A stretch of 64,000 nucleotides of DNA from Sulfurospirillum deleyianum DSM 6946. GTDB lineage: Bacteria; Campylobacterota; Campylobacteria; Campylobacterales; Sulfurospirillaceae. Made by a program: the position numbers and the translations under genes. This document shows, in pieces, positions 12,124 to 18,034 of the stretch (its first letter is position 1; every line of letters starts with the position of its first letter). The notes under the pieces are model-generated. The model did no database searches. It saw only the letters and a list, made by a program, of their open reading frames with translations, and was not told where the DNA came from. The stretch covers positions 1,302,001 to 1,366,000 of the forward strand of contig NC_013512.1 in assembly GCF_000024885.1 (NCBI RefSeq), given 5' to 3'.

Positions 12124-12159
12124 GACCTCTCCTTTCATATTTTTAATAACGGCTTTTGA

Positions 12160-12334
12160 GCAAAGCTCAAAAACCTACGTTGCACTTGCCGCTAAAGCTT
12201 GCCTCTTGCGAGGCAGAATATTTTACATGTAACGCAAAGCTCAAAAACCTACGTTGCACTTGGCGCTAAAGCTTGCCTCTTACGAGGCAGAATATTTTAC
12301 ATGTAACGCAAAGCTCAAAAACCTACGTTGCACT
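12160..12334. repeat. 74-bp tandem repeat, 2.4 copies
   Basis: Units at 12160-12233 and 12234-12307 differ at two positions; a 27-base partial third copy covers 12308-12334. Each unit opens with GCAAAGCTCAAAAA and CCTACGTTGCACTT. It then contains a short hairpin (GCCTC, 4-base loop, GAGGC) and ends with the palindrome TTTACATGTAAC. The period is not a multiple of three. The array lies in the probable 5' leader of ilvB. Confidence 0.92.
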
Positions 12335-12432
12335 CCAACTTACCAATATCTTTACATGTAAAAGGGACAGAAAGTAAAAAATTTTTGATTATTTACCTTT
12401 TGTAGCATTTACAGTCTGTAAAAAAGTGGGTT

Positions 12433-12494: not shown

Positions 12495-12641
12495 CTTAAA
12501 TTAGACTTCTTGCAAAACACATTTTGTAAGAAGGAAAAGCACTAAGGGTACGTGGGCTTTTGACCAAAGAAAGAACAGTGTTAACGTAGCCCTTAGCGCT
12601 TTGCTTGAAAGGCATGTTAAGAGTTCTGTAAGAACTCTATT
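12495..12641 (-). repeat. Dispersed 3'-end repeat element, copy 1 (after gppA)
   Basis: Read on the minus strand it begins at the gppA stop with a 7-bp hairpin (GAGTTCT, TAC loop, AGAACTC). It continues with GCAAAGCGC, CTACGTTAACACT, AAAGCCCACG and GTGCTTTTCCTTCTT, and ends with a long A/T-rich hairpin (TTCTTACAAAA / TTTTGCAAGAA) and CTAATTTAAG. It aligns end to end with 16992-17152, in the same orientation relative to the preceding gene. It is non-coding and may act as a terminator or RNA element. Confidence 0.85.
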
Positions 12642-13548
12642 AAAAGATTCTAACCTTACCTTGACAATGAGCCAGTGCAACACCTTCACGCAGACCATCA
12701 TCAATAACCACACAACGATCAAAACCCAATTTCCGCATAATCGCTTTGACAATTAAAATTCCCACAACGATCAAATCCCTGCGATTAGTACCTGTGTAAC
12801 GTTCTGCATCTTCATGATTTAACGCAATAAGCTTTGTATACGCTTGATCAAAATCTTTTACATATAATACTTTTCCATTGACTTTCGATGCGTCATAATG
12901 CGCATAATCAAGCCCCTCTAAAAAAGCAGCAACGGTCGTAGGTGTTCCAGCAGTTGTTACTAATTGTAAATAATTCTCTTCAATTCCACCCTCTTTAGGA
13001 AGAAAATCCTCAATGGACTCTACAATACGTGTTACATTTTGTTCAATATCTGTTCGATACTGTTCGGCTACACTGATAATGCCAAAAGGGAAACTTTTTG
13101 TAGTTTTTTCGCCATTTTTACAAAAAATAAGTTCAGTAGAACCACCGCCTAAATCAAATAAAGCATACGTATGCGCAGCAAATCCTTCTCTTTGGAGCGC
13201 ATGCTCAATCGCTAAAGAGGTAAAATACGCCTCTTGTTCGCCTGAAATAATCTCAAAATTAAGCCCAAAACGACGTTTTATCTCTTCTAAAATTTCTTGT
13301 GAATTCAAAGCAACACGCATGGCTTGGGTGGTCACACAAACAGAAGGTTCATGCTTGAAATCAAAAAGAGAAGAAGCCTCTTCGAGCGCTGAAAAAATAG
13401 CTCTTTGCGCCTCTTCACCAATACGCATGGTCGCATGTAACTCTTTAGCCGTACGCACAATCTTCTCGTACGTTCTAACTTTTACACGCTTTTGACACTC
13501 TATTTCAACAATACGTAACGTATTGGAGCCTAAATCGCACGCAATCAT
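12640..13548 (-). CDS. Ppx/GppA-family exopolyphosphatase / pppGpp phosphohydrolase
   Basis: These actin-fold phosphatases hydrolyse polyphosphate or convert pppGpp to ppGpp. The 302-residue product starts MIACDLGSNTLRIVEIE, the phosphate-1 loop, and contains the phosphate-2 motif FDLGGGSTELIF. It ends with RRDLIVVGILIVKAIM and DDGLREGVAL blocks. A longer frame runs to 13695, but its extra 49 residues are unrelated to the family and overlap the upstream small gene. The ATG at 13548 overlaps that gene's TGA. It lacks the C-terminal HD domain of longer GppA proteins. The repeat element begins at its stop codon. Confidence 0.85.
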   Translation of the reverse strand: MIACDLGSNTLRIVEIECQKRVKVRTYEKIVRTAKELHATMRIGEEAQRAIFSALEEASSLFDFKHEPSVCVTTQAMRVALNSQEILEEIKRRFGLNFEIISGEQEAYFTSLAIEHALQREGFAAHTYALFDLGGGSTELIFCKNGEKTTKSFPFGIISVAEQYRTDIEQNVTRIVESIEDFLPKEGGIEENYLQLVTTAGTPTTVAAFLEGLDYAHYDASKVNGKVLYVKDFDQAYTKLIALNHEDAERYTGTNRRDLIVVGILIVKAIMRKLGFDRCVVIDDGLREGVALAHCQGKVRIF

Positions 13549-13763
13549 CTTCGACCACGAAACAATTTTACAAGTCCCCAAAAAATCAAGCGAATAAATC
13601 CAATCACTGCATAAACAATAAACGTATAAAGCAAAGGATGATACGGCTGATGGGACATCAACTGTTGAAAATGCTCGATAGGATGGGAAATCCATTGGTT
13701 CATATGTATACCTAACGCTAAAAATACTAACAATAATAGAAAAATAAAAAACTCTTTTTTCAT
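13545..13763 (-). CDS. Small membrane protein of unknown function
   Basis: A 72-residue protein with two hydrophobic segments (about residues 5-21 and 46-66, LLYTFIVYAVIGFIRLIFWG), separated by a histidine-rich loop (HPIEHFQQLMSHQPYHP), ending in basic residues KLFRGRR. I recognise no family. Its stop overlaps the start of the Ppx/GppA gene as ATGA, so the two are coupled. An inner-membrane location with both termini on the same side is inferred. Confidence 0.65.
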   Translation of the reverse strand: MKKEFFIFLLLLVFLALGIHMNQWISHPIEHFQQLMSHQPYHPLLYTFIVYAVIGFIRLIFWGLVKLFRGRR

Positions 13764-15830: not shown

Positions 15831-16994
15831 ATGTTTTTTAAATCTCATAGAGCGCAAAAAACATCCTCCTCTTCCATGAATCATACACCGCCTCAAACGT
15901 ATGTTTTTGTATGGCCTTTGTGTACGCGCATTATCCATTGGATTATTGCGCTCTCTTTTTTCTTCTCGTTTATCACATCCTTTTTTTATCCTCTTTTTAA
16001 ATGGCATGTTGCCTTTGGATTTATCTTTGGGATTGTTTTGCTTTTTAGAATTATTTGGGGATTTATCGGACCTTCGTATGCTAAATTTAAAACTTTTAAA
16101 CTCAGTTTTGAGGCTTTAAAATTCTATTTTGTTGAAAAAATTCAAAACCGATGGCGTAAAATCTATGCAGGACACAATGCCGCATCAAGCTGGTTTACGC
16201 TGATTGTCTTAACGCTTGGAAGCTTCATTGTTTTGAGCGGATTTATGTTGCAAGGAGTGCAAGAAGCCAGCGGTCTTTTTGCCTTTTTAAATCCTTCTTA
16301 TTTTTCACACGCTTTCACGCTTTCCTTTTTTCATCAAGCCTTTTCCTACCTGCTTCTTTCCTGTGCCATCGTACATATTTTGGGTGTTTTGATTGAACAG
16401 TTTTACCACAAAACAGAGATGGTTTTTGCCATGATTACGGGATATAAAAAAGCAGAAGGCAAAACAACGCACATCTCAATGCGTTTACAATTTTTTGCCT
16501 ATGGCATTATCTTTTTATGCCTTGCAATCCTTTTACATGTAAAGATAAATCCAACGACAATACTCACACAAAGCCATTTTGAAAATCGTGATTTTAAAGC
16601 AGAACATTTAGCCTATGAGCGCTGTGAAAAATGTCATAAAACCTACCCTCCTTTTATGTTACCCAAAGATTCATGGGTGAGGCTTATGGGAGGTTTAGAG
16701 AACCATTTTGGAGAAAAAATCACAGAACATAACATCACTAAAGCAGACCAAAAAAGCATTGAAGCCTATCTTGTTGCCAACAGTGCAGAACACTCTAGCC
16801 ATAAACTTGCCTTCAACACCCTACACTCTTTAGGTGAACTTCGTCCCCTTTCTATGCGAAAAGTCCCGTACTGGAGAGAGATTCACAAAAATATTCCCAT
16901 GCCAACAGACGTTAAAAATGGTTCTAACTGCTTTGCTTGTCATACCAACTTTGAGTATGGCATTTTAGATAAAGCGCATATCAAGCTCCATTAG
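15831..16994 (+). CDS. Cytochrome b561-type membrane protein fused to a diheme cytochrome c domain
   Basis: The 387-residue protein has an N-terminal di-heme b561/hydrogenase-type membrane domain. Hydrophobic segments fall at about 28-52, 58-80, 118-142, 165-190 and 218-240, with histidines in RIIHWII, FKWHVAFG, FFHQAF and AIVHILGV. A C-terminal periplasmic DHC-like domain follows, with heme motifs CEKCH (from residue 265) and CFACH (from 367). Such proteins pass electrons between the quinone pool and periplasmic cytochromes. It starts 11 bases after the broken cytochrome c. A palindrome at 16532-16543 encodes LHVK just after the last membrane segment. Its TAG stop is the first base triplet of the 3'-end repeat. 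Confidence 0.82.
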   Translation: MFFKSHRAQKTSSSSMNHTPPQTYVFVWPLCTRIIHWIIALSFFFSFITSFFYPLFKWHVAFGFIFGIVLLFRIIWGFIGPSYAKFKTFKLSFEALKFYFVEKIQNRWRKIYAGHNAASSWFTLIVLTLGSFIVLSGFMLQGVQEASGLFAFLNPSYFSHAFTLSFFHQAFSYLLLSCAIVHILGVLIEQFYHKTEMVFAMITGYKKAEGKTTHISMRLQFFAYGIIFLCLAILLHVKINPTTILTQSHFENRDFKAEHLAYERCEKCHKTYPPFMLPKDSWVRLMGGLENHFGEKITEHNITKADQKSIEAYLVANSAEHSSHKLAFNTLHSLGELRPLSMRKVPYWREIHKNIPMPTDVKNGSNCFACHTNFEYGILDKAHIKLH

Positions 16995-17152
16995 AGTTCT
17001 TGCAGAACTCCTGACACGCCTTTAAAGCAAAGCTCAAAACGCAGTTTCTGTGAAAAGGCTACGTTAACACTAGGTTTTTTTTGGCAAAAAGCCCACGCAC
17101 CTTTGGTGCTTTTCCTTCTTGCAAAATTAATTTTGCAAAAAGTCTATTTAAG
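16992..17152 (+). repeat. Dispersed 3'-end repeat element, copy 2 (after the cytochrome b-c gene)
   Basis: It begins with the TAG stop and a 7-bp hairpin (GAGTTCT, TGC loop, AGAACTC). It continues with GCAAAGCTCAAAA, a ~17-base segment absent from copy 1, CTACGTTAACACT, AAAAAGCCCACG, a small hairpin GCACC-TTT-GGTGC, CTTTTCCTTCTT and a perfect 20-base palindrome TTGCAAAATT/AATTTTGCAA, ending CTATTTAAG. Arm differences from copy 1 often keep pairing. The same orientation and position directly after a stop codon suggest a 3'-UTR or terminator role. Confidence 0.85.
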
Positions 17153-17221
17153 TTCTTCATAAACCACCTTCTACAAAAACGCTATCCATAAGATAAAATT
17201 TTTTTAGAATCATCTTTTGGC

Positions 17222-17254: not shown

Positions 17255-18034
17255 ATGCTTTTAGGTATAAATATTGATCATATTGCGGTGCTTAGAGAAG
17301 CGAGAAAAGTCAACGACCCTGATCCTTTGGATGCCATCTCTTTAGTGAAACGTTCAGGAGCGGATCAAATTACCATTCATCTAAGAGAAGACCGCCGTCA
17401 CATCAATGATGATGATGCTTCTAAAATCATTCAAAACGCACAACTTCCTGTTAATTTAGAGTGTTCTATTAATGAAGAGATTATTGAAAAAGTTTTAGAA
17501 CTTCGTCCACACCGTGCAACATTAGTTCCTGAAAAACGTGAAGAAGTGACAACGGAGGGAGGGCTAGATGTGTATAAAAACCAAACACGTATCACAGATA
17601 TCGCCAAACGTTTAGCCAAAGAGCATATTGAACTTTCACTCTTTATTGACCCAACAAGCGCTATGATAGAAGCATCTCAACAAACAGGCGCTCAATGGGT
17701 AGAACTGCATACGGGTCTTTATGCCAACATTTACGCCATGCTCTACTCTAACCTCTCTCGCTCAGCACATAGCATTAAAGCCTTAGAATTAGACAGAGAA
17801 TCCTTACATGTAAAGCTAATTGAAGCCACGCATGAACTTGAAATGGCAGCTAAATATGCTCATCAATTAGGGCTTAAAGTAGCAGCAGGGCATGGATTAA
17901 ACTACCACAATGTCAAACGTATTGTACAAATTAAAGAAATTTGCGAACTGAACATTGGACAGAGCATCATCGCACGCTCTGTTTTTGTTGGGTTTGAAAG
18001 CGCTATCAAAGAGATGTTAGGATTGTTACGATGA
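17255..18034 (+). CDS. pdxJ: Pyridoxine 5'-phosphate synthase
   Basis: PdxJ condenses 1-deoxyxylulose 5-phosphate with the PdxA product to form pyridoxine 5'-phosphate in the DXP-dependent vitamin B6 route. The 259-residue TIM barrel starts LLGINIDHIAVLREAR and shows IHLREDRRHI, VPEKREEVTTEGGLDV and AAGHGLNYHNV, all family signatures. It overlaps pdxA by four bases. A palindrome variant at 17803-17814 encodes LHVK (SLHVKLIEATHE). Confidence 0.96.
   Translation: MLLGINIDHIAVLREARKVNDPDPLDAISLVKRSGADQITIHLREDRRHINDDDASKIIQNAQLPVNLECSINEEIIEKVLELRPHRATLVPEKREEVTTEGGLDVYKNQTRITDIAKRLAKEHIELSLFIDPTSAMIEASQQTGAQWVELHTGLYANIYAMLYSNLSRSAHSIKALELDRESLHVKLIEATHELEMAAKYAHQLGLKVAAGHGLNYHNVKRIVQIKEICELNIGQSIIARSVFVGFESAIKEMLGLLR

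Follow-up and report, generated by a model that had tools for sequence, protein, structure and literature searches.

The repeat overlapping the stop codon of a cytochrome gene in Sulfurospirillum deleyianum DSM 6946 is copy 2 of a genus-wide MITE. We put the probability at roughly 87% that this family consists of non-autonomous elements, typically 136 bp long, which are moved in trans by an IS5-family transposase and which re-form TAG at stop codons through an ANT-type target combined with AG ends. The family is new and of IS5 type. Mobility, which the original prediction had raised only as a condition, is now backed by three lines of evidence: empty sites, duplicated targets and a partner IS.

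The window analysed is the whole stretch of 64,000 nucleotides at positions 1,302,001 to 1,366,000 of contig NC_013512.1. In it the host gene (15831–16994, + strand), which by domain match encodes a fusion of a cytochrome b561-type membrane domain with a dihaem cytochrome c domain, ends with the codons CTC CAT TAG. Genome search and boundary comparison place copy 2 at 16993–17145 (+), a length of 153 bp, between two copies of an ATT target duplication at 16990–16992 and 17146–17148 (both +). The gene's own TAG (16992–16994, +) had been assigned entirely to the start of the element. The overlap is real, but the T is the last base of the left ATT, so that the element supplies only the AG, two of the three stop-codon bases; its first base is 16993 (AGAG...) rather than 16992, and its last is 17145. 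On the left, the terminal inverted repeat AGAGTTCTTGCAGAACTC lies at 16993–17010 (+) and is itself a hairpin; its right counterpart, with the family consensus AGACTTCTTGCAAAACTC, lies at 17128–17145 (−). A perfect 20-base palindrome had been noticed near the end of copy 2 and was located at 17119–17138 (no strand), within the right-end hairpin. Seventeen extra bases had also been noticed. They account for the difference between 153 and the usual 136 bp and align approximately to 17036–17052 (+), but they are not peculiar to copy 2: they mark a long subfamily, elements of 151–155 bp being found at 12 of 88 distinct sites. By consensus match alone, a hairpin resembling a terminator (GCACC-TTT-GGTGC, followed by TTTT) is present at 17097–17109 (+). 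The next gene downstream is pdxJ (17255–18034, +; ORF and domain match).

Copy 1 (12503–12638, −; 136 bp), delimited in the same way, can be aligned with copy 2 across the entire element and was matched by the copy 2 query at E = 8.9e-27 in a search of the own genome. It is preceded by ...TTT TAA T, confirming that its TAG directly follows a TAA. Its AAT duplication occupies 12639–12641 and, by boundary comparison, 12500–12502 (both −), and the AA of the former belongs to the TAA stop of a Ppx/GppA gene (12640–13695, −; domain match). A second hairpin-rich repeat adjoins copy 1 in near-tandem copies at 12150–12345 (−; GAGCTTTGC / GCCTCGTAAGAGGC / TTTACATGT). It has seven matches in the own genome, itself included, and its first hairpin is similar to the MITE core; a stretch of this kind at L105 was a weak match of the MITE model. 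At another site (L101 4900–5200 / L102 7700–7980) the same gene gap holds the MITE in one genome and an apparent member of this second repeat family in the relative.

The S. deleyianum genome gave 27 matches to the copy 2 query, counting partial and self-palindrome matches, and holds about 25 copies, full or partial. Apart from copy 2 itself, the 23 best matches are 72–89% identical to it over the aligned part, and few copies therefore look recent. The element was present in all 24 genomes of the genus and, at the family level, in 26 of 44 genomes, that is in these 24 and in two of the 20 others; none was found in G034:C1:1-200. A 30-base core pattern matched 90 stretches in GTDB, and the 80 matches listed are named as Sulfurospirillum, Sulfurospirillaceae or unclassified Campylobacterales, Epsilonproteobacteria and Proteobacteria bins. 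The main form of 136 bp, with 69 copies measuring 134–138 bp, has the ends described above and lacks a transposase ORF, the features by which bacterial MITEs are recognised. Our literature search found no paper combining Sulfurospirillum and MITE. In one place (L002 / L013, G000 540992–541274) two copies follow each other head to tail, separated by ATT, a layout that insertion of one copy at the end of the other would give.

We compared the bases beside both ends of 124 distinct full-length copies. A 3-bp identity, mostly ANT, was seen in 76 of them, as against 32 on average, and never more than 46, over 2000 trials with shuffled pairing of the ends; duplications of 4–8 bp were seen in none of the 124, and a perfect duplication was missing in 48. 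ATT (41) and AAT (23) were the commonest. Merging orthologous copies left 88 distinct sites, 56 of them with a duplication, and these 56 gave the target logo Y-A-W-T-R, with T or C before the A in 93%, A in 93%, T in 93% and R after it in 60%. Flanks were compared in related genomes in 11 cases, two of which showed a clean empty site (L095 vs L096, L098 vs L097). The L103/L104 flanks shared nothing, one of two L100/L099 comparisons had the element in either genome, and the other comparisons were not clean (L086 vs L087 and L088, the other L100/L099, L101/L102, L089/L090, L091/L092, L093/L094). Duplications and empty sites together define the element as AGAG...GTCT and copy 2 as 16993–17145 with ATT on each side. 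The TAG...CTA seen at many ends had first brought to mind a TA duplication, as in a MITE of IS630/Tc1-mariner type with TAGA...TCTA ends. That duplication is excluded by the empty sites and by the 124 copies, which show 3 bp; insertions at TTT, AAA and CTT fit 3 bp and not TA, and the IS with the same ends is an ANT-duplicating member of the IS5 family, which makes the IS630/Tc1-mariner type very improbable. Elements derived from IS200/IS605 are not known to leave a target duplication, so that a palindromic element of this origin is ruled out by the 3-bp duplications.

A DDE_Tnp_1 family match was obtained in 10 of the 24 genus genomes. We found an IS of 916 bp with perfect AGACATCTTGCAAAACTC ends in G003, G004, G006, G011 and G022; with a relative of 67% identity in G005 this makes six of the 24 genomes. 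Some MITE copies, for example L016 and L018, have these 18 bases unchanged at their right end. All 19 distinct insertions of the 916-bp IS with intact ends showed ANT 3-bp duplications. Its two ORFs carry HTH_Tnp_4 and DDE_Tnp_4 domains and also matched DDE_Tnp_1; the NCBIfam IS5 model NF033581 matched at 1.4e-35 and 2.9e-13, each half ORF scoring under the full-length cut-off. By transposase type the IS belongs to the IS5 family. From the common ends and the common target rule we infer that its transposase moves the MITE, which appears to share only its ends with the 916-bp IS. In the S. deleyianum genome the 916-bp IS was not found, and the transposase loci examined there had no ends of the AGACATCTTGCAAAACTC type.

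The ISL2 group uses ANT as its target, and the partner IS agrees with an ISL2-like assignment in its size, its two ORFs and its ANT target; the MITE differs from such an IS in having no transposase ORF. ERIC and similar repeats are intergenic, hairpin-rich and found in both orientations. The MITE resembles ERIC in these respects and is unlike it in having a 3-bp duplication and an identified partner IS. Among the ISL2-like members of the IS5 family, which are close to the present system, ISCaa2 likewise has 916 bp and two ORFs; it also shares the DDE transposase of IS5 type, a 3-bp target and inverted repeats some 20 bp long, whereas copies of ISCaa2 are reported to lack direct repeats (PMC3196728) and ANT duplications are present here. 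Among short elements, the MITE is similar to RUP of pneumococcus and Correia/NEMIS of Neisseria, which are likewise short, AT-rich, bounded by terminal inverted repeats and present in many copies, according to a review (PMC2229807). RUP is presumed there to owe its mobility to an IS acting in trans whose ends match its own, IS630-Spn1, with a TA target, and TA ends are given for most such short elements; the MITE described here differs in its 3-bp ANT target and its IS5-type partner.

Under the favoured reading of a MITE moved in trans, the element enters a 3-bp target, mostly ANT in a Y-A-W-T-R context, and duplicates it, as the site comparisons show. Its ends, AGAG... and ...GTCT, would undergo the same staggered cut and joining as those of the partner IS. 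A stop codon with its adjoining bases often fits the target, as NAN-TAA or TAA-T. Where the T of the stop serves as the third target base, the AG of the element comes next and TAG is formed anew, whichever end of the element lies there, because both ends begin with AG after the target T. The protein usually remains unchanged or nearly so, and the insertion may be tolerated for that reason. Copy 2 sits in just this manner at the end of the cytochrome gene.

We then counted stop codons at the junctions of the 88 sites. ORFs of at least 80 codons with their 3' end facing an element numbered 109, from which we dropped 11 that stop elsewhere inside the element and 24 that stop more than 50 nt away. 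Among the 74 remaining gene ends, 22 stop at the junction, using the target T and two element bases (TAG in 19, TAA in 3 with an altered element end), and 12 stop one base before the junction, the target overlapping the stop (10 TAA-T, 1 TAA-A, 1 TGA-T). Positions 7–50 downstream account for 37 stops, on average less than one per position. Junction stops were formed by the left end in 8 and the right end in 14 cases, and the class one base before was split 6 to 6. In the S. deleyianum genome 13 of 20 full-length copies lie at a stop in either way, L014 being counted with a one-base boundary shift. Joining the flanks of the 22 junction stops gave a stop at the same codon in 16 (12 TAA, 3 TAG, 1 TGA); in the other six, copy 2 included, removal of the element leaves no stop at that codon.

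To what extent target preference explains these numbers was judged with two matrices. One, built from 33 MITE sites away from stops, predicts 12–13 junction stops and 6–7 stops one base before among the 74; the other, built from 19 IS targets, predicts 10–11 and 4–5. With 34 observed in both classes and 14–20 expected, P ranges from 4e-4 to 2e-7 depending on the model, and when the six ends without a former stop are excluded the excess is smaller (P from 0.008 to 3e-5). Target preference thus explains roughly half of the 22 plus 12 cases. The underlying set comprised 205 genes from the window and 12 further stretches rather than whole genomes, restricted in the corrected model to gene ends with room for an insertion (96–131 of the 205, depending on the margin). 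A first null model and its repeat with the IS matrix had predicted 27 and 31 of the 34. Both were rejected as too lenient, since positions 1–4 were counted for all 205 genes, including those overlapping the next gene. The excess beyond target preference may reflect survival of harmless insertions, limits of the matrix models or real targeting. No called ORF encloses any of the 130 full copies, which is a weak test, the element itself carrying stops. The suggestion that the element may insert in such a way that a stop is provided or preserved is therefore supported by the 22 junction stops, 16 of them at former stop codons, in a simpler mechanical form: as target preference and AG ends cover about half of the association, no insertion "so as to" achieve this is needed.

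The comparison with relatives lacking the element, which had been proposed for the cytochrome, was run on four genes. The end residue was mostly the same or nearly the same. In the L141 gene (422 aa) all 21 element-free loci that extend to the 3' end share the final residue; a locus at a contig end and one distant paralogue had been left out. L325 and L326 contain AAAAAATAGATATTTTC, which is the L141 site minus element and duplication, with an uninterrupted TAG, so that insertion in the L141 site took place behind the T of TAG. Of the 23 other loci of the L191 gene we examined 18; the end residue is identical in 15 of these and lies two residues earlier in three. Among 23 loci of the L003 gene, the four nearest relatives (69–80% identical) have the same end residue, whereas the more distant loci, 19 in number, mostly extend a few residues further. 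Many orthologues of the L141 gene (L327, L328, L330, L331, L333–L338) carry a TTACATGTAA palindrome directly 3' of the stop codon, a motif that also occurs in other gaps of the genus.

None of 20 full-length orthologues of the cytochrome has the element in the 190 bases after the stop. When the flanks of copy 2 are joined at the ATT duplication they read CTC CAT TTA AGT TCT TCA TAA, with no stop at the position of the TAG codon, so that either four codons were lost or a T was gained beside the element. Insertion may thus have truncated the cytochrome, whose frame would formerly have run on through Leu-Ser-Ser-Ser to a stop, the element providing an earlier one. The five other junction stops without a former stop at that codon agree with this, and the distant relative L070 is as long as the four-codon extension. 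We regard truncation as possible but doubtful, since the near relatives free of the element are of the same length (L059, ...HIRRP*) or one residue longer (L057 and L058, ...HIHLPQ*), and an indel of a single T on the right side of the element would be enough to give TAA again. The former stop at copy 2 is ambiguous: near relatives end within one residue, yet removal of the insert leaves no stop there. In 11 of the 20 orthologues pdxJ starts 55–64 nt past the cytochrome stop. In the window this distance is 260 nt, of which element and duplication make up about 156. About 40 bases to the right of copy 2, beyond the element, have no counterpart in these 11 orthologous gaps; they lie within 17149–17195, between copy 2 and the pdxJ promoter region, and are absent from the gap of the near relatives.

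A different account would see in the element a 3'-end module held at stop codons by selection, its hairpins terminating transcription or protecting mRNA. The terminator-like hairpin and the stop-codon excess above target preference speak for it, as does the interior structure. The element consensus folds into five hairpins, in which 92% of cells pair in an alignment of 50 copies, drawn from the 69 of 134–138 bp. Two-sided changes occur in 16 of 42 pairs, with 65 cells as against 21.4 +/- 3.4 in shuffles, which retain relatedness, and at most 14 in slid controls. The structure was drawn by hand from the consensus and then counted, so that it leans on the sequences used; automatic folding of 73 copies with RNAalifold gave a weak consensus (−3.9 kcal/mol), and Rfam gave no match in the window at the gathering score. 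Pairing is also kept in 31 distinct core-only copies, defined as model matches without either end, at 95%, 80% and 92% in the three core helices and with 70 two-sided changes as against about 31 in shuffles. The structure therefore appears to be maintained independently of the transposon ends, through selection on RNA or single-strand DNA or through quasi-palindrome repair.

That such repair could also yield paired changes weakens the case for a 3'-end module, and the element shows little orientation preference: apart from the near-even use of both ends at stops, the genes neighbouring 130 full copies are oriented +/+ in 35 and −/− in 36 cases, which speaks against a one-way terminator role. 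The 25 core-only copies lean to the minus direction (13 −/−, 5 +/+), opposite to what a + strand terminator would call for. We therefore consider retention as a 3'-end module improbable. Similarly unlikely is an interior under selection of its own as a structured RNA or ssDNA module, which the transposon would deliver onto stop codons as a ready-made 3' untranslated region while leaving the protein unaltered, with end-less copies kept for their structured core.

For the MITE moved in trans, the likeness between its target motif and the context of stop codons shows how a transposon can occupy these at little cost, its first two bases re-creating TAG. Landing on stop codons is a simple explanation for about 25 copies, full or partial, in a genome reported as 94% coding (PMC3035281). 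We found no report of a stop codon rebuilt by a transposon among the matches listed, judged by titles and the beginnings of abstracts. The mechanism makes a testable prediction for any other IS that combines an ANT-like target with AG ends, and it calls for caution in annotation, as the stop codons of several genes in the genus are partly transposon-derived. At L295–L297 and other loci, core-only copies have intact hairpins while both transposon ends are gone. Four copies (L279, L282, L286, L289) have lost one arm of the right-end palindrome and retain the terminal repeat, which is what an instability of long palindromes would lead one to expect.
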